NCBI GenBank assembly: GCA_029555025.1
Contig: JAKPTZ010000093.1
Location: forward strand, 1 to 64,000
DNA length: 64,000 nucleotides
From: Deltaproteobacteria bacterium
Lineage (GTDB): Bacteria; Myxococcota_A; UBA9042; DTJE01
Direction: 5' to 3'
A program made the position numbers and the translations under genes. The notes beneath the pieces were generated by a model. That model did no database searches. It was not told the origin of the DNA and saw only the letters and a list, made by a program, of their open reading frames with translations. Shown here piece by piece: positions 1 to 44,498 of this stretch (its first letter is position 1; the number at the start of each line of letters is the position of its first letter).

Positions 1-3000
1 TCCGTCAGTACCGCTGCTGCCGTTCGCACCGGCTCCGCCAAAACCGCCGTAAATGATGTTGTCACGGACAACAAGGGCGGACGTGCAGTTCACGATGTAA
101 AGGCCATAGGAGTTTCCACCGGGATTGAAGTTCGCCGGTCCATGAACCAGGAATCCTTCAAACAGCGTTGACGTCGAAATGTTCTGCGCCGTTACAGACA
201 TCAGGTGACCGGCGCCCGAGGACGGTCCGCGAATCGTCGTCAAGGTCGTTTCGACATCACGCTCCCAGGTATCTGCGCGGTAGCCGCCCTTCATGTTGAT
301 TCCAGCCGTAATCGTCACCGCCTCGGCATACTCGCCGTTCGAAACCAGAACGTTGGTCCTGCCAAGCGTGCCCGCGCGGGTAATACCGTACTGAATCGTC
401 AGGCACGGATACTGACCGATCCCAAGCACCGACGGCGCAAGTCCGCAACCGGCGTTGTCCGCCGCCATCGGGTCGTTGTGGGATACATACACCGCCGTCT
501 CGTCAAGGAAGAACTCGCAGCCGTCGTCCGGAATCTCGTTCAGGTCATACCATCCCGCATCGCAAACCATGTTGCACTTCGGAACCCCGGAAGAATCGCA
601 TTCGCCGGACGCATTCGGCAGGTCGTAAATCTGCGTGCAGTCCGTGAAGCAGTTCCCGCACGCTTCGTCCATCACGTAATACACGCCACTCTTGAACGTT
701 TCGTCCGTCTGACCGTCGCAGTCGTTATCCAGGTAATCGCACGTCTCGGCAGACGGCGTTCCCTGGGTGGCGTTGCATTCAACGCCGGTCTGCGCAACGG
801 TGCACTGCCATGTCCCGGTCGCCTGGCACTGGCCGACGCCCGCGCTGCAAACCTGGCCCTTGGTCGGGAAATCTTCGTCGGTAAGGCTGTCACAGTCGTT
901 GTCAAGGCCGTCGCACAGTTCGGCAACCGGGGAACCCGGAGAGGCATTGCACTGGACATTGGTCTTGTCGACCGTACACACATAGACGCCACTGGCAACG
1001 CATTCACCGACACCGGCCTGGCACGCGGTTCCCTTGTTCAGCCAGGTTTCGTCGGTGTCGCCGTCGCAGTCGTTATCCAGGTTGTCGCACTGTTCCGCCG
1101 TCGGACTGCCCACCACCGCATTGCATTCGACATCAAGCTGATCCGCGCTGCAGACATACACGCCGTTCGCCTGACAGGCCCCGACTCCAGCCTCGCAGGC
1201 AGTTCCCTTGTTCGTCCATGTCTCGTCGATGCTGCCGTCGCAGTCGTTGTCCTTGCCGTCGCACAGTTCCGCAACCGGCGAACCTTCAACTGCGTTGCAT
1301 TCCACGCCCGTCATGTCCCCGGTACATACATAAACACCGTTTGACAGACATTCGCCAATACCCGACTGACATGAGCGTCCCTTGTTGGTCCAGTCTTCAT
1401 CGATGCTGCCGTCGCAGTCGTTATCCAGGCCATCGCACTGTTCCGCGACAGGCAGGCCAGGTTCCGCATCGCACTCGACACCAGTCTGGGCGACGTTGCA
1501 CACATAGACACCGGCATCAAGGCATTCACCAACGCCTTCCTGACAGGCTCGACCCTTGTTCGTCCAGGTCTCGTCGATGCTGCCGTTGCAATTGTTATCA
1601 AGGCCGTCGCAAAGTTCCGCGACCGGAGTCCCCGGGTTCGCGTTGCATTCCACGCCACTGAGATCGGCCGTGCAGACGATGACGCCCGTGTCAAGGCATT
1701 CGCCAACGCCTTCCTGGCAGGCAAAGCCCTTGTTCGTCCAGGTCTCGTCGATGCTGCCGTCACAGTCGTTATCCTTGCCGTCGCACAGTTCGGCAACAGG
1801 CGTTCCCGGGTTGGCGCTGCATTCGACGCCAGCCAGATCCGCCGTGCAAACCCAGACGCCGCTGGCAAGGCACTCGCCAACGCCTTCCTGGCAAGCGGTG
1901 CCCTTATTGGTCCAGTCTTCGTCGATGTTGCCGTCGCAGTCGTTGTCAAGGCCGTCACACTGTTCCGCGATCGGCAGGCCCGGTTCCGCGTCGCACTCGA
2001 TTCCGGTCTGATCCGCCGTGCAAACCCAGACGCCGGCATCAAGGCATTCGCCAATGCCTTCCTGACACGCACGCCCCTTGTTCGCCCAGGTCTCGTCGAT
2101 GCTGCCGTCGCAGTCGTTATCAAGGCCGTCGCAAAGTTCCGCGACCGGGGTTCCGGGATTCGCGTTGCATTCCACGCTGCTCAGATCCGCCGTGCAGACC
2201 CAGACACCCGTATCAAGGCATTCGCCGACGCCTTCCTGACAGGCCGTGCCCTTGTTCGTCCAAGTCTCGTCGATGCTGCCGTTACAGTTGTTATCCTTGC
2301 CATCGCACAGTTCAGCGACCGGTGTCCCCGGATTCGCGTTGCACTCGACGCCGCTCAAATCCGCCGTGCAGACCCAGACACCCGTATCAAGGCATTCGCC
2401 GACGCCTTCCTGACAGGCCGTGCCCTTGTTCGTCCAAGTCTCGTCGATGCTGCCGTTACAGTTGTTATCCTTGCCATCGCACAGTTCAGCAACCGGTGTC
2501 CCCGGATTCGCGTTGCACTCGACGCCGCTCAGATCCGCCGTGCACACGATTACGCCCGTATCAAGGCATTCGCCAACGCCTTCCTGGCAGGCAAAGCCCT
2601 TGTTCGCCCAGGTCTCGTCGATGCTGCCGTTGCAGTCGTTGTCCTTGCCATCGCAAAGTTCCGCAACCGGAGTGCCGGGATTCGCGCTGCATTCCACGCC
2701 GCTCAGGTCCGCCGTGCACGTCCAGACGCCGTTGGCGAGGCATTCGCCAACGCCTTCCTGGCAGGCCGTTCCCTTGTTCGTCCAGTCTTCATCGATGCTG
2801 CCGTCGCAGTCGTTGTCAAGGCCGTCGCAAAGTTCCGCCACCGGAGTGCCGGGATTCGCGCTGCATTCGACATCACTCAGGTCCGCCGTGCACGTCCAGA
2901 CGCCGTTCGCAAGGCATTCGCCAACGCCTTCCTGACAGGCTCGACCCAGATTGACCCAATCCTCGTCGATGCTGCCGTCGCAGTCGTTGTCAATGTCGTC

Positions 3001-6000
3001 GCACTGTTCACCGACGGGCAAGCCAGGTTCGGCGCTGCATTCGACCCCGCTGAGATCGGCCGTGCACACCCAGACGCCGGTGTCCGAACAAGCACCAACA
3101 CCTTCCCTGCAGTCCGTGCCCTTGTTCGTCCATGTCTCGTCGATGCTGCCATTACAATTGTTGTCAAGGCCGTCGCACAGTTCGGCAACCGGCGTTCCAG
3201 GATTCGCGTTGCATTCCACGCCGCTCAAATCCGCCGTGCAGACCCAGACGCCGGTATCAAGGCATTCGCCGACGCCTTCCTGACAGGCCGTGCCCTTGTT
3301 CGTCCAGGTCTCGTCAATGGAGCCATTACAGTCGTTATCCTTGCCATCGCACAGTTCCGCGACCGGTGTCCCCGGATTCGCGTTGCACTCGACGCCGCTC
3401 AGATCCGCCGTGCACACGATTACGCCCGTATCAAGGCATTCGCCAACGCCTTCCTGGCACGCAAAGCCCTTGTTCGTCCACGTTTCGTCTATGCTGCCGT
3501 CGCAGTCGTTATCCTTGCCGTCGCACAGTTCGGCAACCGGCGTTCCAGGATTCGCGCTGCATTCAACCCCGCTCAGATCAGCGGTACAAAGCCAGACGCC
3601 GTTCGCAAGGCATTCGCCAACGCCTTCCTGGCAGGCGGTACCCTTGTTTGTCCAGTCTTCATCGATGCTGCCGTCGCAGTCGTTATCCTTGCCGTCGCAC
3701 AGTTCGGCAACAGGCGTTCCCGGGTTGGCGCTGCATTCGACGCCGCTCAGATCAGCGGTACAAGTCCAAACGCCGCTCGCGAGGCATTCGCCCACGCCTT
3801 CCTGACAGGCCGTACCCTTGTTCGTCCACGTCTCGTCGATGCTGCCGTCGCAGTCGTTGTCAAGGCCGTCACACTGTTCCGCGACAGGCAGGCCAGGTTC
3901 CGCGTCGCACTCGATTCCGGTCTGATCCGCCGTGCAGACCCAGACACCGGTATCCAGACATTCGCCAACGCCTTCCTGACATGCGCGACCCTTGTTCGTC
4001 CAGGTCTCGTCGATGCTGCCGTTACAGTTGTTGTCAAGGCCGTCGCACAGTTCGGCGACAGGCGCGCCGGGATTCGCGTTGCATTCCACGCCGCTTTGAT
4101 CGGCCGTGCAGACGATGACGCCGGTATCAAGGCATTCGCCGACGCCTTCCTGGCATGCGAAGCCCTTGTTCGTCCAGGTCTCGTCGATGCTGCCGTCGCA
4201 GTCGTTGTCAAGGCCGTCGCACAGTTCGGCGACAGGCGTTCCAGGATTCGCGTTGCATTCCACGCCGCTCAAGTCGGCCGTGCAGACGATGACGCCGTTC
4301 GCAAGGCATTCGCCCACGCCTTCCTGGCAGGCGGTACCCTTGTTCGTCCAGTCTTCATCGATGCTGCCGTCGCAGTCGTTATCAAGGCCGTCGCACAGTT
4401 CGGCAACCGGCGTTCCCGGGTTGGCGCTGCATTCAACATCACTCAGATCGGCCGTGCACGTCCAGACGCCCGTCGCAAGGCATTCGCCAACACCTTCCTG
4501 GCAGGCTCGGGCCAGGTTCACCCACTCCTCGTCAATACTGCCGTCGCAGTCGTTATCAATGTCGTCACAAAGTTCAGCTACCGGATCGCCCGGTTCGGCG
4601 CTGCATTCAACCCCGCCGAGGTCAGCCGAACACACCCAGACTCCGGTATCCGAACACGCGCCAATGCCTTCCCTGCAGTCCGTTCCCTTGTTCGTCCAGG
4701 TCTCGTCGATGCTGCCGTTGCAGTTGTTGTCAAGGCCGTCGCAAAGCTCCGCGACCGGCGTGCCGGGATTCGCGTTGCATTCCACGCCGCTTTGATCGGC
4801 CGTGCAGACGATGACGCCCGTATCAAGACACTCGCCAACGCCTTCCTGGCATGCAAAGCCCTTGTTCGTCCAGGTCTCGTCGATGCTGCCGTCGCAGTCG
4901 TTATCAAGGCCGTCGCACAGTTCGGCAACCGGCGTTCCAGGATTCGCGCTGCATTCAACCCCGCTCAGATCCGCCATGCAGACGATGACGCCGTTCGCAA
5001 GGCATTCGCCGACACCTTCCTGGCAGGCGGTACCCTTGTTTGTCCAGTCTTCATCGATGCCGCCGTCGCAGTCGTTATCCTTGCCGTCGCACAGTTCCGC
5101 GACAGGCGTTCCCGGGTTGGCGCTGCATTCCACGCCGCTCAGATCCGCCATGCACGTCCAGACGCCGTTGGCAAGACATTCACCGACGCCTTCCTGGCAG
5201 GCCGTGCCCTTGTTTGTCCAGTCTTCATCGATGCTGCCATCGCAGTCGTTATCAAGGCCGTCGCACAGTTCCACGACTGGCGCGCCCGGCTCCGCGTCAC
5301 ACTCGATGCCGGACTGATCCGCCGTGCAGACCCAGACACCGGTATCAAAACACTCACCCACGCCTTCCTGGCAGGCCCGGCCCTTATTGGTCCACGTCTC
5401 GTCAATGCTGCCGTCGCAGTCGTTGTCGATTCCGTCACAAAGTTCCGCGACCGCCGTTCCCGGATTCGCGCTGCATTCGATACCGCTGAAGTCCGCGGTG
5501 CAGACCCAGACACCGGTGTCCAGGCAGGCTCCGACGCCCTCGTTGCATGGCCGCCCCTTGTCCGTCCAGGTCTCGTCGATGCTGCCGTTGCAGTTATTAT
5601 CAAGGCCGTCACAAAGTTCCGCCACCGGAGTCCCCGGATTCGCGTTGCATTCCACGCCGCTCAGATCGGCCGTGCAGACGATGACGCCCGTATCAAGGCA
5701 TTCGCCAACGCCTTCCTGACAGGCAAAACCCTTGTTTGTCCAGTCTTCATCGATGCTGCCGTCGCAGTCGTTGTCAAGGCCGTCGCACAATTCGGCAACA
5801 GGCGTTCCAGGATTCGCGCTGCATTCGACGCCGCTCAGATCCGCCGTACAGACGATGACGCCGTTCGCAAGGCATTCACCCACGCCTTCCTGGCAGGCGC
5901 GACCCAGATCGGCCCAGTCTTCATCGATACTGCCGTCGCAGTCGTTGTCGATTCCGTCGCAGATTTCGGGCGATGGGGTACCTGCAACCACGCTGCATTC

Positions 6001-8961
6001 AATGCCCGACATATCGGCCATGCATCGGAAAACGCCCGTCGCGCGGCACGCGCCCTGGCCGACCACGCATACGGTTTCCCGTTCCGGCCATAATTCGTCG
6101 ATCTCAAGGTCGCAGTCGTTATCAAGGCCGTCACAAAGTTCCTGGCCTGCAAGTCCCTCGATCGCATCGCACGCCAGTCCACTCTGATCCGCACTGCAGA
6201 TCCATACACCGTTCGCGAAGCACTCGCCCACGCCCACGGCGCAGACCCGCCCCTTCAGCAGGTAGTCTTCATCGACGCTGCCGTCGCAGTCGTTATCCCT
6301 GTCATCACAGGTTTCATCGACCGGAGTCCCCTGGACGGCGTTGCATTCCACGCCCAGGCCGCCCGCCTGGCATACATAGGTTCCGCTGGCAAGGCACTCG
6401 CCCGTCCCGACGAAACACACCTTTCCGTAGTCCGGGAAGTCCTCGTCAACCGAGTTGTCGCAGTCGTTATCCTTCAGGTCGCAGATTTCGGAAACAGGCT
6501 CGCCCGCAACAGCCGTGCACTCCACGCCGTCGCCAACCGCGTTGCACACGATATTTCCAGTGCCAAGGCATTCCCCGATACCGGCCGTGCACGTCGAACC
6601 GACCGACGGGAAGGGCTCGTCGATCAGGCCGTTGCAGTCATCGTCGTTGTTGTTGCAGATTTCCACCGACGGGGTCTGGGCATTGCACACGGTCCAGCCG
6701 GTCGCCGGCTGACACGTCTGATCGCCAAAGCACCGACCGAAGGAATTCGAAATGACGCATGCACGGACATGACCCGCGTTTGCGGCAAGGCAGTCGCACG
6801 AATTCGACTGCGGGAAACACTTGAAAAGGGGCTGGCCCAGGTCGTTCGTCTCGCGGCAGTAATAACCTTCCGGACAAGTCTTACGATCGGGATCAAGTTC
6901 CGGACGCAACGCGTCCTCGCTGCAATCCCACATGCAGTATGTATTTCCAACCGAGTCCGCCGGGATGCACACGTCGCCCGGAATCTGGCAACTCGCATCG
7001 CTGCTGCAAGCAAGACACTGCGACTCGGGGAACCGCTGACATGAAAGATCCGACGCCTTCCACCAGCCCTCGTTGCAGTAATCGACCAGGCATACGGGCT
7101 GCGGACCGGTCGCGTCGCACTTCATGACCGCGTTCTGCACCAGGCCCGCGCACGAAACGTTGCACGCGCCGCAGTGGTCGTAATTGTTGTACTTGTTCGT
7201 TCCGGCCAGCTTGAAATCCTCGTCCGTCTCTCCGTTGCAGTTATCATCGATCGCGTTGCAGACTTCAGCGGATGGCATCTTCGCGGGACATACCCATTCC
7301 TTCCCGGATGGAGTGTCCTGGCAGGACCACGTCCCGCCGCACGTGTATTCCGTTCCAGACACAGGATCGGTCCACGATTTCTCGCACGGATCCGGGGGCT
7401 GGATCGGATCGTCATCGACCAGCCCGTTGCAATCGTTGTCAATCGCGTCACAGATTTCGTCAGCGGGAACCCTGGCCGAGCAGTTCACCCAGCCAACAGC
7501 CCCGTCACAGACCTCGTTACCCTGGCACGTTCCGAATTCATTCACGATTTCGCAGATTCGCTTGATCCCGTGGTTCGCCTGCGTGCACTCGCAGGTTCCC
7601 GAAATCGGAACGCACTGCATCGAACCGGCAACGTCCGAACACTGATAACCTCCAGGACACTCCGGGCCGTAAATGCCGTCCGGACTGCAGTCCCGGCCGC
7701 AGTACTTACCCGACTCGAACTGGATACACTTGTTGACTTCGGATCCGCAGTTCGAATCCTGCTCACAGGGAACGCAAAGGCTTGAAATCGCCGGACGACA
7801 AAGCTGCGGACCGGCCTTCAGGTATCCCTGGATGCACTCCTCGACCACGCACTGGGGAACATCCTCCGGATTGATGCCGGGATCGCACGACGTCGTCTTC
7901 GCGAACGGAATCAGACCATCGCAACCGACCCCGCACTGCCCGCAGTTCTCCTCGCTGACGTACTTACCGTCAACCTTGAAGTCCTCGTCCGTGCTGCCGT
8001 CGCAGTTGTCGTCCAGATAGTTGCAGGTCTCGGCCGCCGGTATCGGCCCGAAACAATCCCAGCCATCCTGACCCCGACAAAGCCATTCACCGCGACACGA
8101 ACCGATCCCGTCCACCGTATTGAAGCAATCGCCCACCGGAAGTTCCGGATTGTCGTCCGAAATCCGGTTGCAGTCGTTGTCCAGTCCGTCGCAGATTTCC
8201 GCCGTCGGCTCCGCCGCCGAACATTCGCTCCAGCCAGTTGCAAGATTACACGTCTGGAACCCGAGACACGTACCGGCTTCGTTGTCCTTCGAGCAGGGGC
8301 GCTGCTCAGTATCGTTCTTCAGGCGGCAGGTGCACGTCCCGTTCGAGGGAATGCACTGCGTTGACTTCCTTGAAGTCTCGGGATCCGTTGCCTCGACGCA
8401 GTCGTAACCGTCGGGACACGCCGAATACTCCGAACAGGAACGGCTGCAGAAGTTGCCTTCCTCGTATGGCAGGCAAAGACCGTCCGCGCACTGTGAATTC
8501 TTGACGCACGACCGGCAGAGGAATACCCCCGAAGGCATGCACAGCGTGACAGGATCCCCAACGACGATAACCGTCCGGCAAGACCAGTCGTCTGGGCAGT
8601 CGTTGTTGCAACGCCTGGAACAAACCAGGCCGTTAACGTCCTCGACGCAGTAACCGGAATTGCAGTCGGTGTTGTCCAGGCACGGGTAGCCGAACTCGCG
8701 CGGCAGCGGCCCGGTATCACCGTTTGAATCGGGCACGTTGGTATCGACTCCGATCAGGTCGATTCCGATATCCTCGCCGATGCGGTCTTCCTGATTGTCC
8801 GGAAGGATGTCCTTCGGCGGGATTGTGTCGCCGGCAACGTCCGAACCGTTGTCCGAACCCGGGATGTCATATTGGAGTACCGGCCCGTCGGAACAGGACA
8901 GCGCGAAAAGACCGGTCGCAACAACGACGGCAAAAATGCGAATCGAAAGAAGACTTCTCAT
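1..8961 (-). CDS. Giant Cys-rich, metal-binding-repeat surface lipoprotein with beta-helix (partial, C-terminus off the left edge)
   Basis: The ATG at 8961 follows a GGAGG Shine-Dalgarno and the frame stays open to base 1, at least 2,987 codons. The N-terminus is a lipoprotein signal ending in LFALSC, so Cys22 or thereabouts is the lipidated residue, followed by an Asp-rich tether. Residues to about 768 form a non-repetitive Cys-rich region with several DNDCNG/DNDCDG motifs. Residues about 769-2740 are 34 tandem 58-residue units, each with six Cys and a DNDCDGSIDE loop that resembles MopE-type 'putative metal-binding' and thrombospondin-type-3 Ca2+ loops. After the array come a short Cys-rich linker and the beginning of a right-handed beta-helix (TITAGINMKGGYRADTWERD) that turns Gly-rich at the window edge. 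I infer a secreted, surface-anchored, disulfide-stabilised, metal-binding fibre or adhesin; no catalytic domain is seen. It has its own promoter and a shorter paralogue at 37.8-40.4 kb. Confidence 0.9.
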   Translation of the reverse strand, partial: MRSLLSIRIFAVVVATGLFALSCSDGPVLQYDIPGSDNGSDVAGDTIPPKDILPDNQEDRIGEDIGIDLIGVDTNVPDSNGDTGPLPREFGYPCLDNTDCNSGYCVEDVNGLVCSRRCNNDCPDDWSCRTVIVVGDPVTLCMPSGVFLCRSCVKNSQCADGLCLPYEEGNFCSRSCSEYSACPDGYDCVEATDPETSRKSTQCIPSNGTCTCRLKNDTEQRPCSKDNEAGTCLGFQTCNLATGWSECSAAEPTAEICDGLDNDCNRISDDNPELPVGDCFNTVDGIGSCRGEWLCRGQDGWDCFGPIPAAETCNYLDDNCDGSTDEDFKVDGKYVSEENCGQCGVGCDGLIPFAKTTSCDPGINPEDVPQCVVEECIQGYLKAGPQLCRPAISSLCVPCEQDSNCGSEVNKCIQFESGKYCGRDCSPDGIYGPECPGGYQCSDVAGSMQCVPISGTCECTQANHGIKRICEIVNEFGTCQGNEVCDGAVGWVNCSARVPADEICDAIDNDCNGLVDDDPIQPPDPCEKSWTDPVSGTEYTCGGTWSCQDTPSGKEWVCPAKMPSAEVCNAIDDNCNGETDEDFKLAGTNKYNNYDHCGACNVSCAGLVQNAVMKCDATGPQPVCLVDYCNEGWWKASDLSCQRFPESQCLACSSDASCQIPGDVCIPADSVGNTYCMWDCSEDALRPELDPDRKTCPEGYYCRETNDLGQPLFKCFPQSNSCDCLAANAGHVRACVISNSFGRCFGDQTCQPATGWTVCNAQTPSVEICNNNDDDCNGLIDEPFPSVGSTCTAGIGECLGTGNIVCNAVGDGVECTAVAGEPVSEICDLKDNDCDNSVDEDFPDYGKVCFVGTGECLASGTYVCQAGGLGVECNAVQGTPVDETCDDRDNDCDGSVDEDYLLKGRVCAVGVGECFANGVWICSADQSGLACDAIEGLAGQELCDGLDNDCDLEIDELWPERETVCVVGQGACRATGVFRCMADMSGIECSVVAGTPSPEICDGIDNDCDGSIDEDWADLGRACQEGVGECLANGVIVCTADLSGVECSANPGTPVAELCDGLDNDCDGSIDEDWTNKGFACQEGVGECLDTGVIVCTADLSGVECNANPGTPVAELCDGLDNNCNGSIDETWTDKGRPCNEGVGACLDTGVWVCTADFSGIECSANPGTAVAELCDGIDNDCDGSIDETWTNKGRACQEGVGECFDTGVWVCTADQSGIECDAEPGAPVVELCDGLDNDCDGSIDEDWTNKGTACQEGVGECLANGVWTCMADLSGVECSANPGTPVAELCDGKDNDCDGGIDEDWTNKGTACQEGVGECLANGVIVCMADLSGVECSANPGTPVAELCDGLDNDCDGSIDETWTNKGFACQEGVGECLDTGVIVCTADQSGVECNANPGTPVAELCDGLDNNCNGSIDETWTNKGTDCREGIGACSDTGVWVCSADLGGVECSAEPGDPVAELCDDIDNDCDGSIDEEWVNLARACQEGVGECLATGVWTCTADLSDVECSANPGTPVAELCDGLDNDCDGSIDEDWTNKGTACQEGVGECLANGVIVCTADLSGVECNANPGTPVAELCDGLDNDCDGSIDETWTNKGFACQEGVGECLDTGVIVCTADQSGVECNANPGAPVAELCDGLDNNCNGSIDETWTNKGRACQEGVGECLDTGVWVCTADQTGIECDAEPGLPVAEQCDGLDNDCDGSIDETWTNKGTACQEGVGECLASGVWTCTADLSGVECSANPGTPVAELCDGKDNDCDGSIDEDWTNKGTACQEGVGECLANGVWLCTADLSGVECSANPGTPVAELCDGKDNDCDGSIDETWTNKGFACQEGVGECLDTGVIVCTADLSGVECNANPGTPVAELCDGKDNDCNGSIDETWTNKGTACQEGVGECLDTGVWVCTADLSGVECNANPGTPVAELCDGLDNNCNGSIDETWTNKGTDCREGVGACSDTGVWVCTADLSGVECSAEPGLPVGEQCDDIDNDCDGSIDEDWVNLGRACQEGVGECLANGVWTCTADLSDVECSANPGTPVAELCDGLDNDCDGSIDEDWTNKGTACQEGVGECLANGVWTCTADLSGVECSANPGTPVAELCDGKDNDCNGSIDETWANKGFACQEGVGECLDTGVIVCTADLSGVECNANPGTPVAELCDGKDNNCNGSIDETWTNKGTACQEGVGECLDTGVWVCTADLSGVECNANPGTPVAELCDGKDNNCNGSIDETWTNKGTACQEGVGECLDTGVWVCTADLSSVECNANPGTPVAELCDGLDNDCDGSIDETWANKGRACQEGIGECLDAGVWVCTADQTGIECDAEPGLPIAEQCDGLDNDCDGNIDEDWTNKGTACQEGVGECLASGVWVCTADLAGVECSANPGTPVAELCDGKDNDCDGSIDETWTNKGFACQEGVGECLDTGVIVCTADLSGVECNANPGTPVAELCDGLDNNCNGSIDETWTNKGRACQEGVGECLDAGVYVCNVAQTGVECDAEPGLPVAEQCDGLDNDCDGSIDEDWTNKGRSCQSGIGECLSNGVYVCTGDMTGVECNAVEGSPVAELCDGKDNDCDGSIDETWTNKGTACEAGVGACQANGVYVCSADQLDVECNAVVGSPTAEQCDNLDNDCDGDTDETWLNKGTACQAGVGECVASGVYVCTVDKTNVQCNASPGSPVAELCDGLDNDCDSLTDEDFPTKGQVCSAGVGQCQATGTWQCTVAQTGVECNATQGTPSAETCDYLDNDCDGQTDETFKSGVYYVMDEACGNCFTDCTQIYDLPNASGECDSSGVPKCNMVCDAGWYDLNEIPDDGCEFFLDETAVYVSHNDPMAADNAGCGLAPSVLGIGQYPCLTIQYGITRAGTLGRTNVLVSNGEYAEAVTITAGINMKGGYRADTWERDVETTLTTIRGPSSGAGHLMSVTAQNISTSTLFEGFLVHGPANFNPGGNSYGLYIVNCTSALVVRDNIIYGGFGGAGANGSSGTDG
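700..6657 (-). repeat. Tandem array of 174-bp (58-residue) units, 34 complete plus one partial, inside the giant lipoprotein
   Basis: The DCDG/NCNG core recurs at exactly 174-bp steps: taking the base just before the conserved core on the plus strand, the series is 714, 888, 1062 and so on through 6456 and 6630, with all 35 positions in register and no indel. Units at the two ends are more diverged than the central ones, as expected for an array that turns over by unequal exchange. About nine units carry NCNG instead of DCDG. Two neighbouring units (about 2187-2360 and 2361-2534) differ at only two bases. Confidence 0.97.
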
Positions 8962-9018
8962 GATAAATCCTCCGGGAACGGCGACGGACTGAAAAACAAT
9001 GCCTAACCCGCTGTTTTC

Positions 9019-9035
9019 AAGGGCCAAAAGGCCCT
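9019..9035 (-). other. Short hairpin in the leader of the giant lipoprotein gene
   Basis: On the minus strand the sequence AGGGCC-TTTT-GGCCCT forms a GC-rich hairpin with a 4-base loop, about 60 bases before the start codon at 8961 and downstream of the promoter at 9064-9092. It is not followed by a U-run, so it is not a convincing intrinsic terminator; an RNA-stability or leader structure is possible. Confidence 0.45.
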
Positions 9036-10127: not shown

Positions 10128-11777
10128 TCAGTCGTCAAGCCTTTCGCCGTAACACGGCTTCGCGCCGCCCTGACTGGTCATGCACATCGCAATATCCTCG
10201 AATTCGCCGCACTTGCAGGAGTCGCCGGACGCCGAGCAATTCACCAGCGCGGTCCACCGCCTTTCGCTGGAAGGAATCGACGGATCGGTGGGGCAGATGA
10301 ACACGCACTGCGGGAACCCGTTCAAGTCATTGAAACACTTGTAGCTCCCAGGTGCCGAACACTTACCGTTTGTCGCGGGGCATTCGTTCATGCAGTCATT
10401 GATGAACGGGGAACAGCCGAACTGGCACGGCGTCGCCGGCAACTTTTTGTTGCAGCCCTCGACCGCGTAGGTACAGGTCCATACGGCGGTGCCGTCGGGC
10501 GTGCAGTACTGTCCCGGCGTGCATTCGTCATCGCACGGCTCGCACATCCCGGATTGATTGCAGACGGCCCCGTGACCACAAAGCCCGCATGGAACCCCGC
10601 ACCCGTTGTCCCCGCATTCACGCTCGCCGCACTCGGGGATGCAGCACCTGTCGTTGATGCACTCATACTCGCCGATGCACCCACAGTCCCCGGGACAGTT
10701 GCGGCAGTTCTCCGACGCCACGCCTTCGCAGTCCTCGATCTCGGGATTGCAGGACTCGCAGAAGTTGTTCAGGCATTCATTGGTCGTCTGCGGACAGAAG
10801 TAGTTGTGGCAGTCAACGCCCGCCTTGCACTCGCCGCAGCTTCCGCCGCAGCCGTCGTCGCCGCACTGCCCGGGACAGTAAGGCTGACAGCACTTTCCAT
10901 CTTCGGTGCAGACGTGGTTGACCGGGCACTCCGGCCCGCAATAGCCGCCCTGCCCGTCAGGCCCGCATTCACGTCCCTGGCATTCCTTCGGACAGCACGT
11001 GCTGCCGTCGAAACAGCACACCAGATCACCTTCACAGGAACCGCATGAGCCACCGCAACCGTCGGTGCCGCAAATCTTTTCCGAAAGGTCGTCACCGCAG
11101 TCCGGGGTGCAGCACGAACCGGCAAAGCATATCTCGCCCTGGGCGGTCTTGCACGATCCGCAATCAACCCCGCCCGTCCCTGTTCCGCACCAGCGTCCTT
11201 CGCAACCATTCGGGCGGCAAGTGCCGGACTCGCAGAATCTGTCGGCGGCGCACTCGCCGCAAGTACCGCCGCAACCGTCGTCGCCACATTCCATCCCGGC
11301 GCACTGCTGCTTGCAGCACTGGCCATCGGCACACCTGAAACCGGCATCGCACTTGCCACAACCTTCCGGCCGCCCGCAACTGTCTTCACCGCACTTCGCC
11401 GAACCGCAAACCGGAACACAACATGTGCCCGCCATGCAGGGCAGCCCGTCACCGCACTGCCCGCACTGTCCGCCGCAACCGTCATCCCCGCACTCAAGCC
11501 CGGCGCAGTTGGGGGTGCAGCACGTGCCAAGGAAACATGTCTTGCCATCCTGGCAACTTCCGCATGTTCCGCCACAACCGTCGTCACCGCACTCACGCCC
11601 CTGGCAGAACGGATCGCAGCAGGTGCCGTCAAAACATACCTGGGGGGGCTTGCAGCGATTGTCGCAGGAATCCCGGGTATCAATACTTGAATCCGTCAGG
11701 ACGTCGGTGGGACTTGAACCGGAACCGCAGGCGACGACAAACAGCGGAACAAGAGCCGCAAGGAATGACTTATTCAT
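10128..11777 (-). CDS. Cys-rich lipoprotein with nine CGDDGCGG-type repeats
   Basis: Translation from ATG 11777 (GGGGG-type ribosome site) gives a 549-residue lipoprotein: signal MNKSFLAALVPLFVVAC, then a Ser/Asp-rich tether, then about nine irregular 30-45-residue units built round CxGxECGDDGCGGxCGxC. The last third changes to other Cys patterns, including PGDCGCIGEYECINDRCC. Such repeats are common in extracellular proteins of Myxococcota-like bacteria, where the function is unknown; the conserved Asp/Cys spacing suggests disulfide-rich, perhaps metal-stabilised, small domains. The 57.9-kb lipoprotein carries two copies of the same unit. An ATG-less extension to 11930 in the same frame is rejected because it precedes the promoter and signal peptide. 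Confidence 0.85.
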   Translation of the reverse strand: MNKSFLAALVPLFVVACGSGSSPTDVLTDSSIDTRDSCDNRCKPPQVCFDGTCCDPFCQGRECGDDGCGGTCGSCQDGKTCFLGTCCTPNCAGLECGDDGCGGQCGQCGDGLPCMAGTCCVPVCGSAKCGEDSCGRPEGCGKCDAGFRCADGQCCKQQCAGMECGDDGCGGTCGECAADRFCESGTCRPNGCEGRWCGTGTGGVDCGSCKTAQGEICFAGSCCTPDCGDDLSEKICGTDGCGGSCGSCEGDLVCCFDGSTCCPKECQGRECGPDGQGGYCGPECPVNHVCTEDGKCCQPYCPGQCGDDGCGGSCGECKAGVDCHNYFCPQTTNECLNNFCESCNPEIEDCEGVASENCRNCPGDCGCIGEYECINDRCCIPECGERECGDNGCGVPCGLCGHGAVCNQSGMCEPCDDECTPGQYCTPDGTAVWTCTYAVEGCNKKLPATPCQFGCSPFINDCMNECPATNGKCSAPGSYKCFNDLNGFPQCVFICPTDPSIPSSERRWTALVNCSASGDSCKCGEFEDIAMCMTSQGGAKPCYGERLDD

Positions 11778-11855
11778 CGGACCCCCGACAGAAAATCCCA
11801 CAAGACAACCGAACCGGTTTCCAAGGACACGGGAACACCGGCCGGGACAGAAGCC

Positions 11856-11883
11856 ATTATAAGGATATGGTTCCCGTCTGCAA
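11856..11883 (-). promoter_or_regulatory. Sigma-70-type promoter of the CGDDGCGG lipoprotein
   Basis: On the minus strand TTGCAG (11883-11878), a 16-base spacer and a perfect TATAAT (11861-11856). It lies between the recN stop at 11899 and the lipoprotein start at 11777, giving a leader of about 70 bases. Confidence 0.65.
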
Positions 11884-11898
11884 CGGCAACGATTGCGC

Positions 11899-13584
11899 CT
11901 AAAGCAGCAGTCCGTCCGGGGACGATCCAAGCATTTCGCCAGCGTGTTCCCGGGCCTTGTCGGTGATCACCACACCACCGATTATCCTGGCGATCTCGTC
12001 AACCCTGGCCTGGCCGGTCAATCCCTCGACGCCGGCCACGGTGCGTCCACCGACAAGACTCTTGAATACCTTGAAATGCTCGTCGCCGCAGGCGGCGACC
12101 TGGCCATGGTGCGTCACGACCAGAACCTGGCGACCCTCGGATGCCTTCTTCAGCACCTGCCCCATCCGCTCGGCAACACCCCCGGAAACGCCCGCGTCGA
12201 TTTCGTCATACACGATCACCGGCGTACCGACCGATCCCGACATGACCGAATAAATACCGAGCGTTATACGAGAAAGCTCACCGCCGGAAGCGACATCGGC
12301 GACCTGGCCGAACCCTTCACCCGGGTTCGCCTCGATCATGAACTCAACCCTGTCGCATCCATCGGGCCCCGGTTCGTCCGGATTGACGTCGACGCGGAAG
12401 GTGGCGCCCTCCATAGCCAGTTGACGAATAACGGCGGTTACCGCGGCCCCGAGAATTGCCGCATGCCTGCGCCTTTCCTCGCCAAGAACCCCGGCGGTCT
12501 TCATGAACATCGACTTCAGCCCGGCAACCTTCCCGGCCAGACCCTCACCCTCGACGACATCCCCATCCAGACCGTCAAGCTCGGCCCTGGCGGCGGCCAG
12601 CGTCCTCAAGACGGCATCCTCGCTTCCTCCGTACTTGCGGAAAAGATCCTGCATCGCATCCAGTCGCGCCTCGACGGCAACCAGGCGTTCCGGATCAAGA
12701 TCAACACCCTCGCCGTAATCCAGGATTTCCCTGGACAGTTCACGAACCTCGATCCTGGCGGAATCAAGCCTGGCCAGCATCGGCTCAAGCCCCCTGTCTA
12801 TCGCGGCCATCTCGCGCAACAGGTGTTCAACCCTGCCCAGCTCGTCAAAAACGGCGCCGGCCCCTTCGTAAAGAGCCTCATATCCCTGGGCGGCAAGTTC
12901 CCTCAACCTGCCGGATCCGCGCAGCCGCGCCGCTTCGTCACGAATCGAATCGCCGTCGCCCGGCTTCAACCCGACCGACTCTATCTGGGAAATGACATGT
13001 CGCAGATAATCGCGCCTGGCCTCGCGACCGGCAGCGGCTTCATCAAGCCTGCGAAGTCTTGCGGCGGCCTCGCTGAATGCTTTGAATGCATCACGACAAT
13101 CAGCCGTCAGACTCTGGTTGCAGGCGAAGGCATCGAGCATCGCCATGCGCTGGCCGGGAACCCCGAGGCCGATGAAGGCGTGCTGACCGGCAACCGACAC
13201 AAGCGCCCCGACCAGATCCCGAAGAACCCGGGCCGAAGCCATTGAACCGTTGATGTATGCCTTGGATCGGCCGTCGGAGGTTATCGTCCTGCGTACGTGG
13301 ATTACCCCTTCCTCGCCATCGTAAGGGCCATAACCAGCCTCGGCGAACAGGGAATCGATCTCCGGACTGGAACCGGTCGAAAAGACCGCTTCCACAACGG
13401 CCTGACTTTCACCTGAACGGACGTCAGAACCTTCGGCCCTTGCACCCATCAGCAACTTGATCGCCCCGACCAGCAACGACTTGCCGGCACCGGTCTCCCC
13501 GGTCAGGACGGTCAGGCCCGGATGGAAATCGACCTCGACATCGCCAAGGACGCCAAGATTCCTGACATGAAGGGTCTTGAGCAA
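11899..13584 (-). CDS. recN: DNA repair protein RecN
   Basis: This is an SMC-like ATPase of recombinational double-strand-break repair. Walker A is GETGAGKS at about residue 29, the ABC signature is VASGGELSRITL and Walker B is VIVYDEIDAG near the C-terminus, with an Ala/Glu/Leu-rich coiled coil between. The length of about 561 residues fits the family. The chosen start is TTG 13584, five to seven bases after GGAGGG, which gives the family-typical beginning MLKTLHVRNLGVL; a TTG at 13602 would add six residues. It is 85 bases downstream of prfA and may be read with it. RecN is SOS-induced in many bacteria; I see no LexA box directly in front of this copy. Confidence 0.95.
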   Translation of the reverse strand: MLKTLHVRNLGVLGDVEVDFHPGLTVLTGETGAGKSLLVGAIKLLMGARAEGSDVRSGESQAVVEAVFSTGSSPEIDSLFAEAGYGPYDGEEGVIHVRRTITSDGRSKAYINGSMASARVLRDLVGALVSVAGQHAFIGLGVPGQRMAMLDAFACNQSLTADCRDAFKAFSEAAARLRRLDEAAAGREARRDYLRHVISQIESVGLKPGDGDSIRDEAARLRGSGRLRELAAQGYEALYEGAGAVFDELGRVEHLLREMAAIDRGLEPMLARLDSARIEVRELSREILDYGEGVDLDPERLVAVEARLDAMQDLFRKYGGSEDAVLRTLAAARAELDGLDGDVVEGEGLAGKVAGLKSMFMKTAGVLGEERRRHAAILGAAVTAVIRQLAMEGATFRVDVNPDEPGPDGCDRVEFMIEANPGEGFGQVADVASGGELSRITLGIYSVMSGSVGTPVIVYDEIDAGVSGGVAERMGQVLKKASEGRQVLVVTHHGQVAACGDEHFKVFKSLVGGRTVAGVEGLTGQARVDEIARIIGGVVITDKAREHAGEMLGSSPDGLLL

Positions 13585-13669: not shown

Positions 13670-14749
13670 TTATCTTTCGGCAAGCGCCATCGCGGCGAAC
13701 TGGGCCTGAAGGTTGCTGATCATTTCGTCCAGGTCGCCTTCCATTATCTGTTCCAGCTTGTAAAGCGTCAGATTAATTCGATGATCGGTCAACCTGTTCT
13801 GTGGAAAATTGTAGGTTCTGATTCGCTCCGAACGATCCCCGGATCCGACCATGGCCCGCCGGGCATCCTGCTCCGAGGCGTACTGCTCCGAGCGCTTCTT
13901 TTCCGCAAGCCTGGCTGCAAGCACCTTGTACGCCTTCGCCCGGTTCTTGTGCTGGGATCTTTCGTCCTGGCAGGTAACGACCATGCCCGTCGGAAGGTGC
14001 GTCAACCTTATCGCCGAATCGGTCTTGTTGATGTGCTGGCCGCCCGCGCCCGAGGCACGGAAGATGTCTTCGCGGATTTCGCTCTTGTCGATCTCCATTT
14101 CGAAGTCATCGTCCGCTTCCGGCATGACGGCGACCGTTACGGCGGACGTGTGGATGCGCCCCTGCGCCTCGGTCTCGGGCACCCGCTGGACGCGATGCAC
14201 GCCGCCCTCGAACTTGAGATAGCTATAGACGCGGCTTCCGCTGACAAGCGCTATGACTTCCTTCAGGCCGCCCAACTCGGTCTCAGAGATGTTGACAATC
14301 TCAACGGCCCAGCGACGGGCCTCCGCATAGCGGCAATACATCCTGAAAAGGTTTGCCGCGAACAGCGCGGCTTCCTCGCCACCCGTTCCGGCCCTGATTT
14401 CAAGGAAAATGTTCTTTTTGTCCAGCGGATCGACAGGCACCAGGAAACGCATCAACGCGGATTCCAGTTCCTCGCCGCGGGGGATCAACCGCTTCAATTC
14501 CTCGACCGCCAGTTCACCGAGATCAGGATCCGAACGCAGTTCCTCGTTGTCGGAAATGGCCTGCATGACGTGCCGGTACTCACGATACATCGACACGGTT
14601 TCCTCGAGTTCGGCGCGCTCCAGGCCGATCTCCTTCATGCGATCGACGTTCAGATAGACTTCAGGCATTTCCATGTCGGCATTCAGGCGCTCGTACCTGG
14701 CCTCCACGTCATCCAGCTTCCGAAGCGCAACCGAAAGATCCATCGTCAT
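13670..14749 (-). CDS. prfA: Peptide chain release factor 1
   Basis: The 359-residue product recognises UAA/UAG stop codons and releases the peptide. The peptidyl-tRNA hydrolysis motif GGQ is in SGAGGQHINKTDS, and the stop-codon-reading PxT tripeptide is PET in VQRVPETEAQGRIHTS. The start ATG at 14749 overlaps the stop of the DUF1385 gene as ATGA, indicating translational coupling; ATG 14743 is a possible alternative two codons in. The order rpmE, DUF1385, prfA is a widely conserved cluster, usually followed by the release-factor methylase prmC, which is not here. Confidence 0.97.
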   Translation of the reverse strand: MTMDLSVALRKLDDVEARYERLNADMEMPEVYLNVDRMKEIGLERAELEETVSMYREYRHVMQAISDNEELRSDPDLGELAVEELKRLIPRGEELESALMRFLVPVDPLDKKNIFLEIRAGTGGEEAALFAANLFRMYCRYAEARRWAVEIVNISETELGGLKEVIALVSGSRVYSYLKFEGGVHRVQRVPETEAQGRIHTSAVTVAVMPEADDDFEMEIDKSEIREDIFRASGAGGQHINKTDSAIRLTHLPTGMVVTCQDERSQHKNRAKAYKVLAARLAEKKRSEQYASEQDARRAMVGSGDRSERIRTYNFPQNRLTDHRINLTLYKLEQIMEGDLDEMISNLQAQFAAMALAER

Positions 14750-15810
14750 TCTCCCGAACTTTCTTCCGGCCCGGCGGCCCGGCGATTCGAAAATTCCCGG
14801 AATTCATCGTAACCGGCAAATTCCGCGACCCTTTCCCCGAATTCCCCGGAAAGCCCGAACAAGGCAGGGTTCAACGCGGACTCAAGGGCCACGATCGCGA
14901 TTTCCTGCTGACGCGCGTCGGGACGCCTGGTCGTGATCTTCTGCATGAGCAGCCCGGGTCCGGAAACCATGCTTCCGAACCATGACCCCCGGCACTTCCC
15001 GGCGAACCTTATGATTTCATAGGAAATGGCCGCAACCGGCAGGATCAGGGGCAATTTGATGGCGACATACAGAACCTGGTTCACGAACCTGACCTGCGAA
15101 AGCTCGGGAAGCAACGGGAACACGCCGGCAAAAACGAATATGCTGACCGCGATCACCGTGACCAGGAAGGCCGTGCCGCACCTTGGATGAAGGGTTGTGC
15201 GGCTCTCAAGCTCTGCCGGCGAAAGAGCTGCGCCCGACTCGAAGGCGAATATCGCCTGGTGCTCCGCCCCGTGGTACTCGAAGACGCGCCGCATGTCCTT
15301 CATGAAGGACACCAGCCAGATATAGAGGACGAATATGCAGAGCTTTATGAAACCGTCAACCAGATGAAAAGCGGCGGCCTTTCCTCCGGCCAGCGCATCG
15401 CTGCCCATCAGCATGCCGATTCCCCAGGTGAGAAAATGGGGCAACGCGGCAAAGAGCGCGAAACCAAATGCCATGGAAACGACAAGGGTTCCGACTATGG
15501 CGCCCGTGGTCATCGCCGCGCCCGGCTTGTCGCCTTCGCCCGCCTGCTCCTGGGGCATCGCGTGAACTGCCGAGAAATTCAGGGCGGAGATACCGTCGGC
15601 CATCGTCTCGAGCAAGGTTGCCATGCCACGAAGACCGGGCCTGGCAAGCGCAGGAAATCGCTTTGAAAGCGAAGCCTGGGAACGCACCCGGACGACTATG
15701 GAACCATCCGGCCGCCTTACAGCGACCGAGGTCGCGTCCGGCGCCCTCATCATGACGCCTTCAACGACCGCCTGTCCGCCAACGGAAGGCGTCTTTGATA
15801 CCATCGTCAT
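14746..15810 (-). CDS. DUF1385 family membrane protein
   Basis: A 354-residue integral membrane protein of the DUF1385 family, recognised by the N-terminal [12 protein letters not shown] motif, the central [14 protein letters not shown] motif and HPRCGTAFL. Four to five membrane segments are visible between about residues 100 and 260. The family's biochemical function is unknown; it is nearly always found between rpmE and prfA, as here. ATG 15810 overlaps the rpmE stop (ATGA) and the gene's own stop overlaps the prfA start, so the three genes are tightly coupled. Confidence 0.92.
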
Positions 15811-16031
15811 TTGCGGATCTGGCTGAGCGGATTCAGGCCTGCGTACTTGCGGTTGAACCGATCGACGCGGCCTTCGGTATCGACGATCTTCTGCTTGCCG
15901 GTAAAGAACGGGTGGCACGACGAACAGATTTCAACGGCGTACGAACCGCGGGTCGAATGGGTCTCGATTACGTTGCCGCATGCGCACGAAATCTTGGCTT
16001 CCGGATATTTGGGATGAATTTCCTTCTTCAT
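15807..16031 (-). CDS. rpmE: 50S ribosomal protein L31 (zinc-binding form)
   Basis: A 74-residue bL31 protein beginning [20 protein letters not shown]. Cys pairs in SCACGN and CSSCHPFF make it the C+ (zinc-binding) type. A GGAGG ribosome site lies just upstream of ATG 16031 and a near-consensus promoter at 16079-16107. First gene of the rpmE-DUF1385-prfA cluster. Confidence 0.97.
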
Positions 16032-16276: not shown

Positions 16277-18229
16277 ATGGGGAAGGAAGCTCGGGGCATA
16301 TGCCCACACTGCCAGCAACAGACGGGCGACGCGGGAACGCCGTGCCCTAATCCCGAATGCGGACGGCTGGGCTATTACCTTATTCCGATACTTTCATTCG
16401 ACGCATCCAAGGCCCGCGCGGAAAAGAAGGGCGCGGGAATCGAACCCATCATCGGCCGCAGGATCGATCGCTACCTGATGGTCGGCAAGGCCGGCGAGGG
16501 CGGCATGGGCGCGGTGTATATCGCGCTTCAACAGCCGCTGAACCGCGAGGTCGCCGTCAAGATCATGCCGTCGATCCACCTTTCCCCCGAGGCCCTCGAA
16601 CGCTTCGAGACCGAGGCCAAGGCGGTCTCTGCACTGGATCACCCGAATATCGTCAAGCTTTACGACTACGGTTTCGGGGAAATAGAGGGCCAGCGCGTTC
16701 CTTACATGGTGCTTGAATACATCAAGCACGGCCGGACGATGAAACAGCTCATGACACAGGAATTCGCGGAACACGAAGTCCTGCGCAGCGAACTGACGCT
16801 GCAGATTTTTGAACAGGTTCTTGGCGGCCTGGGCGCCGCGCACGCCGTCGGCATAGTGCATCGGGACGTTAAGCCCGAGAACGTCATGCTGACACAGATT
16901 CACGGCAATCCGTATTACGCGAAGATCCTCGACTTCGGGCTGGCAACCGGACTTCATGGCAACAGCACCGGAATGACCGGTTCAAACCAGATTCTGGGCA
17001 CGCCGACCTACATGGCCCCCGAGCAGATCCCGTCCAGCAGGCGCCAGGAAATCGATCTCAGGACCGACCTCTACGCGGTCGGCGTCATGCTGTTCGAATG
17101 CATGACGGGAAGCAGGCCATTCCCGGGCGACACGGCGCTGGCGGTGCTGACGGCCAAATCGAACGAAAAGTTCAATCCTTTCGATGCCCCCGTGGCGGCA
17201 AGGCTTACGAAGCCGCAGAGGGCGTTCCTTGAGAAGGCCATCAGCTTCGACTCGGATGGTCGCTTCCAGAGCGCCGGCGAGATGCTGGCCGCCCTGAACG
17301 AGGCCATCGCCCAGTCGGGTGCAAGGAAGCGTGGCGGCCTGCTCGGTTTCATGGAAGACAAACTCGGCACTCAGCTTCCCGGGCTCGGGTCGAGGGGTCC
17401 GGCCACACCTGAGAAGACGAATCCGCCAGCCGGAATCACCGGTTCCGGGGCGACTCCGAACCCGATTACCGGCATGGCCATGCATTCGATGTCCGGGATG
17501 GCGCAGAACCCCCTGGCCGGGATGCCGCCGGGATCCTTGTCCGGGATGGCGCAGAACCCGCTCGCAGTTCAGGGAATACCGCTTAACGGCGGTCCGACGC
17601 CATCGACAAGCCCGGGGATACGCAGACCGGCCAGGACGACGACCAACCCCATCCCCGCGGTCAACGTGACTCCGGGGTGGCAAAGCCAGACCAGTGAGAT
17701 CAGACGCACCGGGCAAAGCTCGATGACCCCGGAGGAACGTGCGGAAAGACTTCGTGGAAGGAAGCGGCGGACAACCGGAACCCACATGGCAAGGGCGGTC
17801 GAGGCCGAAAGGGCGGCGGCCGGGACTCATGACAATCGGGGATTGCCGACGATGCTCGTGGTATTCGGCATCATCGTAGCCATAATCGCCGTCTCTGTGG
17901 CCGTGCCGAGATATCTGGAGAGCCGCCGAATCGACAGGACGCAGGCCGACCTTAAGGATCTGCGGTCTTCGCTGGTGATAGCCGGCAAGTTCGTCGGGCT
18001 TGACAGCCCGGTGCTCCGGGCGGGCACCCAGCTCGACTATTTCATCAGCGATCCCGGCCGGCCGGAGAGCCCTCTGCTTGACGCCTGGGGCAATCCTTAC
18101 CGCGTTCGGTACTCGCTGCAGAACCCGGCCGGATATGTCCTCTATTCAACCGGTTCCGACGGCGAAAAGGGCACCTGCGACCGTGCCCCCGGCAACGACG
18201 ACATCTGTGTGGAACTTGGCTTGCCATGA
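16277..18229 (+). CDS. Membrane Ser/Thr protein kinase fused to a GspG-like pseudopilin domain
   Basis: The 650-residue protein starts with a zinc-ribbon-like segment (CPHC ... CPNPEC, residues about 9-30), then a Hanks-type kinase at about 55-340. The kinase has a Gly-rich loop GEGGMGAVY, Lys in VAVKIM, the catalytic loop HRDVKPENVM, DFGLA and MAPEQ, so it looks active. Next is a low-complexity Pro/Gly/Met linker with repeated GMAQNPLAG-like pieces. One transmembrane helix (LVVFGIIVAIIAVSVAVPRY) follows at about 523-545, and the extracytoplasmic end reads like the C-terminal half of a type II secretion major pseudopilin (DAWGNPYRVRY, LYSTGSDGEKGT). The prepilin-peptidase GFTLIE site is absent, so this is not a processed pilin. 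ATG 16277 is preferred to an in-frame TTG at 16268. Cardiolipin synthase follows directly. Confidence 0.92.
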   Translation: MGKEARGICPHCQQQTGDAGTPCPNPECGRLGYYLIPILSFDASKARAEKKGAGIEPIIGRRIDRYLMVGKAGEGGMGAVYIALQQPLNREVAVKIMPSIHLSPEALERFETEAKAVSALDHPNIVKLYDYGFGEIEGQRVPYMVLEYIKHGRTMKQLMTQEFAEHEVLRSELTLQIFEQVLGGLGAAHAVGIVHRDVKPENVMLTQIHGNPYYAKILDFGLATGLHGNSTGMTGSNQILGTPTYMAPEQIPSSRRQEIDLRTDLYAVGVMLFECMTGSRPFPGDTALAVLTAKSNEKFNPFDAPVAARLTKPQRAFLEKAISFDSDGRFQSAGEMLAALNEAIAQSGARKRGGLLGFMEDKLGTQLPGLGSRGPATPEKTNPPAGITGSGATPNPITGMAMHSMSGMAQNPLAGMPPGSLSGMAQNPLAVQGIPLNGGPTPSTSPGIRRPARTTTNPIPAVNVTPGWQSQTSEIRRTGQSSMTPEERAERLRGRKRRTTGTHMARAVEAERAAAGTHDNRGLPTMLVVFGIIVAIIAVSVAVPRYLESRRIDRTQADLKDLRSSLVIAGKFVGLDSPVLRAGTQLDYFISDPGRPESPLLDAWGNPYRVRYSLQNPAGYVLYSTGSDGEKGTCDRAPGNDDICVELGLP

Positions 18230-18279: not shown

Positions 18280-19677
18280 ATGCAAACGTTCGTTGTTTCG
18301 GCGCTGCATGTCCTGCTGGCATCCTCACTTTCGGTTCATATTCTTCTTAACAAGAAAAGTCCCGCGCGCGCAGGCATCTGGATCATCCTCGTATGGTTCA
18401 TCCCTGTCGCGGGCGCCCTGCTCTACTGGGGTTTCGGCGACAACCGCATCGCGCGGCGGGCCAAACGCCGCCTGAAGGCCAAAAGGCCCGACGGCACGCC
18501 CGACAGTTCGGGAAGGGTGCCCTCGAACCTGATACCTCTTCAGGTCGCCGGCGATCGCATTGCACACAACCCGCTTGTTCCCGGAAACCATATCGAGGTT
18601 CTTGAAAACGGTGACCAGGCTTATCCGGCGATGCTCGCGGCGATTGCAAGCGCCAGGAAAAGCGTGGCATTCCTTACTTACATTTTTGATTCCGACGAAG
18701 TGTGCCGCCACTTCACGGACGTGCTCTGCGACGCGGCAAGACGTGGGGTGCAGGTCAGGCTTCTGGTTGACGGCATCGGCGCGAGGGGCTTCGGGCCCGT
18801 TCTCAGGCGGAGACTGTCGGAGGCCGGCGGCAGGATGGCCAGTTTCTGGAGGCGGGGGCGATGGCTGCGCCACCCTGGCATAAACCTTCGAAACCACAGA
18901 AAAATCCTGGTAATTGACGGTGAAACCGGATTCACCGGCGGCATCAACATCAGCGCAAGGCACGTCACGCAACCTGGCGCACCCTACCCCGAATCATTCG
19001 ATCTCCACTTCAAGCTGAAGGGGCCTGTCGTCGGTCACCTGATGGAAACCTTTACCGACGACTGGGAACTCAGCACCAACGAAACGCTTACCGGCCCGGA
19101 CTGGTTTCCGGATCTGACGCCGGCCGGCAACGTCCTGGCCCGGGGCATTCCATCCGGCCCCGACTTCAGCGTCGGCAGGCTTCACGACCTTCTCCTGGCC
19201 GCGCTCAGGACGGCCAGGGTCTCGATCGACCTGATGTCGCCTTACTTCATCCCGGATGAAGCCATCATGGCGTCGCTGCGAACGTCCGCAAGATCCGGCG
19301 TCAGGGTCAGGGTTTTCATACCGAGCAAGGCGGATCACCGCTTCATGTCCTGGGGTGCCAGGGCTTATCTGCGCGAGTTGATCGTCTGCGGTGTCGAGGT
19401 CTGGGAGATGGGGCCTTCCTTTAACCACAGCAAGTTGACGGTCATCGACGGCGAGTGGCTGATGATGGGATCGGCCAACCTCGATCCGCGAAGCTTCAGG
19501 CTGAATTTCGAGTTCAACGTCGAGGCATATTCCCGTGAACTGGCGGCAAGGGTCGCCGACTACATGGACAGGCAGGTTGCCGGCGCAAGGCGGATCAACA
19601 TGAACGTGCTGGATAAGGAGTCCGCGTTCATAAGGGTTCGCAACAGGTTCATCGCGCTGTTTTCGCCATTCCTGTGA
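18280..19677 (+). CDS. cls: Cardiolipin synthase, phospholipase D superfamily
   Basis: The enzyme joins two phosphatidylglycerol molecules to make cardiolipin at the inner membrane. Two N-terminal membrane helices (residues about 2-20 and 30-50) are followed by two PLD catalytic motifs, HRKILVIDGETGFTGG and HSKLTVIDGEWLMMGSAN, both with the complete H-x-K-x4-D set. The length is 465 residues from ATG 18280, which places the first helix at the N-terminus. An ATG at 18226 overlapping the kinase stop as ATGA is the alternative and would add 18 polar residues. It probably shares a transcript with the kinase gene. With pssA at 45 kb it belongs to phospholipid head-group synthesis. Confidence 0.92.
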   Translation: MQTFVVSALHVLLASSLSVHILLNKKSPARAGIWIILVWFIPVAGALLYWGFGDNRIARRAKRRLKAKRPDGTPDSSGRVPSNLIPLQVAGDRIAHNPLVPGNHIEVLENGDQAYPAMLAAIASARKSVAFLTYIFDSDEVCRHFTDVLCDAARRGVQVRLLVDGIGARGFGPVLRRRLSEAGGRMASFWRRGRWLRHPGINLRNHRKILVIDGETGFTGGINISARHVTQPGAPYPESFDLHFKLKGPVVGHLMETFTDDWELSTNETLTGPDWFPDLTPAGNVLARGIPSGPDFSVGRLHDLLLAALRTARVSIDLMSPYFIPDEAIMASLRTSARSGVRVRVFIPSKADHRFMSWGARAYLRELIVCGVEVWEMGPSFNHSKLTVIDGEWLMMGSANLDPRSFRLNFEFNVEAYSRELAARVADYMDRQVAGARRINMNVLDKESAFIRVRNRFIALFSPFL

Positions 19678-44325: not shown

Positions 44326-44442
44326 TTCAATCCCCGGAAACGTCCCTGGAACGACGAACGCGCACGGATGAAATCTATCACAAACCGCCAATTGTTCCGA
44401 GTTCACGTCAAGCCGTCGCCCCCTGACGCGCGCGCTGTTTTG

Positions 44443-44471
44443 TTGCACTGTGAACAAATGTTCAGTAGGAT
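44443..44471 (+). promoter_or_regulatory. lexA promoter
   Basis: TTGCAC (44443-44448), 17-base spacer and TAGGAT (44466-44471). The SOS box lies inside the spacer, so bound LexA would block RNA polymerase directly. Confidence 0.7.
44452..44463. promoter_or_regulatory. Putative LexA operator (SOS box), GAAC-N4-GTTC type
   Basis: A perfect palindrome, GAACAAATGTTC, lies in the lexA promoter spacer. The GAAC-N4-GTTC pattern is that of the Gram-positive 'Cheo box', not the enterobacterial CTGT-N8-ACAG. The position implies autorepression of lexA; the divergent kinase gene starts 127 bases away and could also respond. Confidence 0.75.
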
Positions 44472-44498
44472 AGTCACGCCTATGGAGAGTCCCCCAAA

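Follow-up and report, generated by a model that had tools for sequence, protein, structure and literature searches.

A GspG-like, predicted periplasmic domain on a Ser/Thr kinase of Myxococcota as a candidate sensor

Based on sequence analysis of 64,000 nucleotides of a Deltaproteobacteria bacterium (the window) and comparisons to related genomes, we propose that the gene described here encodes a single-pass receptor-type Ser/Thr kinase, the periplasmic end of which is a GspG-derived, non-polymerising sensor domain, a reading to which we assign a probability of roughly 57%. Hanks kinases that span the membrane and carry an outer sensor domain are a familiar type, and to our knowledge the inputs of most transmembrane bacterial kinases are unknown. 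A kinase with a GspG-like outer domain is, judging by the literature searched, undescribed; nothing relevant on a kinase-pseudopilin fusion was found in a search with thin coverage of subscription papers, in agreement with the first-pass annotation of this DNA, which knew of no such system.

The same in-frame fusion is present in 7 of the 14 genomes of the order, all Myxococcota MAGs, distributed over the genera g1, g3 and g5, which answers an earlier suggestion to look for it in this phylum. An alignment-based contig search returned six of the seven from MAGs designated Myxococcota, Myxococcales or Deltaproteobacteria; a single tail sequence used as query against the genome contigs found no relatives. 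The architecture and its neighbours are listed in Table 1. The initiating ATG lines up with the start codons picked for the orthologues in the alignment. With the Gly-rich loop, Lys, HRD, DFG and APE all present, the kinase domain is complete, and by its intact domain and motifs the protein is a Hanks-type Ser/Thr kinase with predicted phosphotransfer activity. The motifs GEGGMGAVY, VAVK, HRDVKPEN, DFG and APE are kept in all seven orthologues, as are the four cysteines of the ribbon (C9, C12, C23 and C28), so that the initial description of a complete kinase preceded by a ribbon holds, with zinc as the probable ligand of the latter. As the kinase is cytoplasmic, the protein is expected to adopt an N-in/C-out topology.

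Table 1 Features of the kinase gene and its immediate neighbours in the window.
Feature	Position	Strand	Basis or remark
DUF1385 gene, left-hand neighbour and locus marker	14746..15918	-	PF07136; synteny
Complete gene: ribbon, kinase, linker, TM helix, GspG-like ectodomain	16277..18229	+	Single open frame, ATG 16277 to TGA 18229, 650 aa
N-terminal four-Cys ribbon, probable zinc site	16301..16360	+	C9-x2-C12-x10-C23-x4-C28; metal binding predicted
Hanks-type Ser/Thr kinase domain with intact catalytic motifs	16481..17269	+	PF00069, E 6e-45, residues 69-331
Pro/Gly/Ser-rich linker	17312..17836	+	Poorly conserved; omega among orthologues given in the text
Single TM helix	17840..17911	+	About residues 522-545; poorly conserved, no conserved prepilin Gly/Glu5
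GspG-like ectodomain: GxFVG motif, DAWGNPYRV, hairpin, calcium-type loop	17912..18226	+	PF08334; profile-profile matches
PERCAL/GspG calcium motif, long-loop form with Cys pair	18152..18208	+	G626-S-D628-G-E-K-G-T-C634 ... D641-D642-I-C644
PLD/cardiolipin-synthase-like gene, right-hand neighbour	18280..19677	+	PF13091; 50 bp downstream

The overall layout, a cytoplasmic kinase followed by a linker, one TM helix and a C-terminal outer domain, resembles that of the PknB/PASTA kinases (NF033483), to which the kinase region aligns. However, the window protein scores 252.8 bits against a cut-off of 450 for that family, and instead of PASTA domains it carries the GspG-like outer domain as well as the N-terminal four-Cys ribbon; no PASTA or other named ectodomain was found on it in Pfam or NCBIfam. 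We note that the window encodes a second Hanks kinase (42424-44523, minus strand; PF00069), which has no T2SSG match.

As a single sequence, the tail matches T2SSG (PF08334) with an E-value of 1.6e-4 and 22.1 bits, just above the gathering score of 21, and the GspG equivalog TIGR01710 with an E-value of 3.3e-5 and 23.9 bits, far under the cut-off of 88.85. A profile of the seven tails aligned with hhalign to a GspG profile from the same family of genomes reaches 97.0% and an E-value of 9.9e-11 over 95 columns, the alignment being strongest at the C-terminal hairpin; the proposed connection of the kinase to a GspG-like domain through one helix is thereby sustained. Homology to GspG is clear mainly over the C-terminal hairpin and the calcium-type loop. 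By sequence, the nearest solved structure is GspG 2kep (E 0.003), followed at a marginal E of 0.46 by EpsG 3gn9, both matched in the hairpin only. The kinase tail and GspG each have a long N-terminal helix and then the hairpin DPWGNPY...S-x-G-x-D-G...DD with its calcium-ligand acids; their middle regions differ, that of the tail carrying a GxFVG motif. Modest AlphaFold models built from the seven sequences (pLDDT 75.6 for the tail and 79.4 for the ectodomain) display a long helix and a beta-sheet. Of the structural check proposed in the first-pass annotation, this helix-and-sheet layout is what emerged; Foldseek searches of the PDB with these seven-sequence models, whole-tail and ectodomain-alone, run without a positive control, yielded no significant match to a pilin or any other fold.

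The last part of the ectodomain carries the calcium-type loop. In GspG, the loop PGPDGVPNTEDD binds Ca2+ via the main chain of P114 and V119 together with D117, T122 and D125; its generalised form is known as PERCAL (G-x-D-G-x-x-[GN]-[TN]-x-D-D), and Ca2+ binding by the GspG/PERCAL loop was observed in crystals and with a peptide (PMC3396595). The kinase loop, GSDGEKGT-CDRAPGN-DDIC, opens with G-x-D-G-x-x-G-T and closes with D-D as in PERCAL, but departs from the exact consensus in that CDRAPGN stands between GSDGEKGT and DD, lengthening the segment from T to DD by about six residues, with a cysteine at each end. D628, C634, D641, D642 and C644 are invariant in the seven orthologues. Since the acids D628, D641 and D642 are kept and the cysteine pair is invariant, Ca2+ binding and a C634-C644 disulfide are plausible. 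Ca2+ binding may nevertheless have been lost, as the loop extends about six residues beyond the PERCAL consensus.

T2SSG matches occur almost everywhere in Myxococcota, according to PF08334 scans of 52 genomes of the class and 86 of the phylum. Further kinase-GspG fusions elsewhere in Myxococcota were not found in 379 genomes of the phylum using the tail profile, with 11 candidates scored per genome, and there is no kinase among the remaining long T2SSG-bearing frames inspected in two PF08334 scans. Several of these long frames (L130-L133 from Myxococcota), and also L090 from KSB3, represent alpha-2-macroglobulin-like proteins, so named by reading of the sequence, in which a GspG-type hairpin (DxWG...GPD..DD) is inserted before an MG7-like segment, approximately at the expected bait region. 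Separately, a 608-aa frame of genome G019 (L036:6783-8606, minus strand), apparently a membrane protein, ends in a GspG-like domain, and a second T2SSG-matching protein of the window's genome (L033:6093-6845, plus strand) has a lipoprotein-like start and no prepilin motif in frame.

The best profile match of the kinase tail is a family of stand-alone Cys-type proteins (alignment A6; 97.8%), which it matches slightly better than GspG (E 7.9e-13 versus 9.9e-11); the match of this family to GspG is itself weak (76.6%, E 2e-5). Like the kinase tail, these proteins (L143-L162) possess a single N-terminal hydrophobic segment, a long loop with two cysteines ending in DD-x-C and no prepilin site; unlike it, they are separate proteins, with a gene-order link to a membrane protein. 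They are detected in 21 of the 52 class genomes, in families f6, f9 and f11, and in family f1 the kinase tails are the only matches of this type. The linked protein is apparently multi-TM with two cNMP-binding domains, and a relative of it adjoins the Cys-type gene in 18 of 20 loci, one of which (L157) is a weak partial match; of the remaining two, L147 has its upstream region cut by the contig end and L158 gives no match. In genome G048 the two genes overlap by 4 bp. The pair, with the cNMP-binding protein first and the small Cys-type GspG-like protein second, is conserved across f6, f9 and f11 (L137:3552-5650, L139, L140 and L143-L162). This proximity is an association, not proof of signalling.

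In codon-level comparisons between pairs of orthologues, the kinase shows an omega of 0.07-0.15 and the ectodomain one of 0.13-0.29; the linker lies at 0.21-0.71 and the TM helix at 0.28-0.67. Among these values the close pairs L028/L029 and L030/L031 weigh most, dS being saturated or high in distant pairs. The ectodomain is thus under purifying selection and represents a maintained part of the protein. Alternatively, it could be structural only, plugging the periplasmic side as a small, stable unit and serving to anchor or dimerise the kinase, with input arriving via the cytoplasmic ribbon or the linker. A hairpin stabilised by Ca2+ and a disulfide would make a plausible anchor, and the closest ribbon-kinase paralogues carry PEGA-like or low-complexity tails after their TM helices, indicating that the kinase core tolerates many ends. 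We nevertheless regard such a role as unlikely, perhaps a one-in-five prospect, as the conservation of GxFVG, hairpin and loop positions, combined with purifying selection, seems more than would be required of an inert plug.

True pseudopilins are marked by a class III signal peptide with Gly-1 and Glu5 (PMC4471445). In the seven orthologues, these residues at or before the hydrophobic helix are absent or not conserved, in accordance with the early remark that the cleavage site is missing and the domain stays tethered. In the true GspG proteins of these genomes, conservation peaks in the N-terminal helix, with a mean pairwise identity of 0.92 versus 0.69 for the rest, while the kinases show the opposite pattern (0.31 for the TM helix versus 0.45 for the ectodomain). 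Hence, the helix of the kinases looks like a plain membrane anchor rather than a filament-building helix. An uncleaved pseudopilus subunit was also considered and is rejected, as the assembly features are absent, with neither Gly-1 nor Glu5 and a poorly conserved helix.

It was first suggested that the tethered domain reports on the pseudopilus, contacting GspG or the inner-membrane platform and informing the kinase of assembly. The tail is homologous to GspG and the genome carries a T2SS operon, which includes its own GspG (GMTLIEIMVV, contig C81). Yet the insertion helix and Glu5 of pilins are not kept, the kinase gene lies remote from that operon on contig C49, between the DUF1385 and PLD genes, and four genomes of the same family (G002, G006, G007 and G008) have GspG without the kinase. 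Moreover, the tail fits GspG no better than it fits the Cys-type neighbours of cNMP-binding proteins, and the hairpin is reused in unrelated proteins without an evident secretion role. Taken together, these observations make a reporter of the secretion system improbable, and the suggestion is not upheld.

The gene order in the window is prfA-DUF1385-kinase-PLD-(one gene)-ftsE-ftsX-M23 peptidase. PLD lies 3' of the kinase in all six genomes with a contig reaching that far (the window and five other loci), and DUF1385 lies upstream in five (G000, G001, G005, G011 and G012). The gap between kinase and PLD widens to about 3 kb in G011 and G009, DUF1385 was not found on the other side of the kinase in G009, and the 4.3-kb contig of G003 carries the kinase only. 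PLD also adjoins DUF1385 without the kinase (locus L093); in G008, a stretch of about 350 bp separates DUF1385 from PLD, and no kinase lies between them. In a tree of concatenated prfA, DUF1385 and PLD, which omits G003, the sampled kinase-bearing genomes form one clade (support 0.81) with G008 beside it. The fusion is accordingly inherited at one locus, most simply explained by one gain and subsequent vertical inheritance. The PLD gene, possibly co-transcribed with the kinase gene in the window, is locus context outside the kinase finding. Elsewhere in the window, a very long frame of 3009 aa (1-9027, minus strand) runs off its edge; L027 has a relative of it with 46% identity, placed on the corresponding side of the kinase locus. 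In addition, a predicted secreted Cys-rich protein (10128-11930, minus strand) contains several degenerate CGDDGCGGxCGxC repeats. That the architecture itself is spurious, a misassembly joining two genes or a fortuitous DPWG motif match, as the single-sequence Pfam score barely over the cut-off might hint, has next to no credibility in view of profile E-values of 1e-10 to 1e-12 and the same in-frame fusion in seven MAG assemblies, which also disposes of the sequencing join that had been named as a potential refutation.

For the receptor-type kinase, we therefore favor the following mechanism. The GspG-derived domain would have lost polymerisation and would no longer serve a filament; it would be built on the calcium-type loop, which probably holds Ca2+ and is clamped by the predicted C634-C644 disulfide. 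In the periplasm it would provide the input, as a ligand-binding or dimerisation module, its state changing with a partner protein, Ca2+, redox or an envelope condition, and the signal would then pass through the TM helix and the flexible linker to the cytoplasmic kinase. One lineage would have linked this kind of module to a kinase, and others to cNMP-binding proteins; what the two arrangements have in common is an outer GspG-like domain joined to a cytoplasmic signalling domain.

In conclusion, the GspG-derived outer domain with its calcium-type loop is a concrete and testable candidate for a kinase input. More tentatively, and at present short of an even chance, Myxococcota may have recruited a pseudopilin-derived domain with a Cys-clamped calcium loop for signalling in the periplasm; as a module it would be attached to a kinase in one family and would work together with a cNMP-binding membrane protein in others, and it would constitute a new class of envelope sensor. 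The recurrence of the domain beside cNMP-binding membrane proteins suggests a common periplasmic signal in Myxococcota that can be approached from both sides. The head of a filament subunit appears to be reusable away from any filament, and a T2SSG match alone should therefore not be read as secretion.
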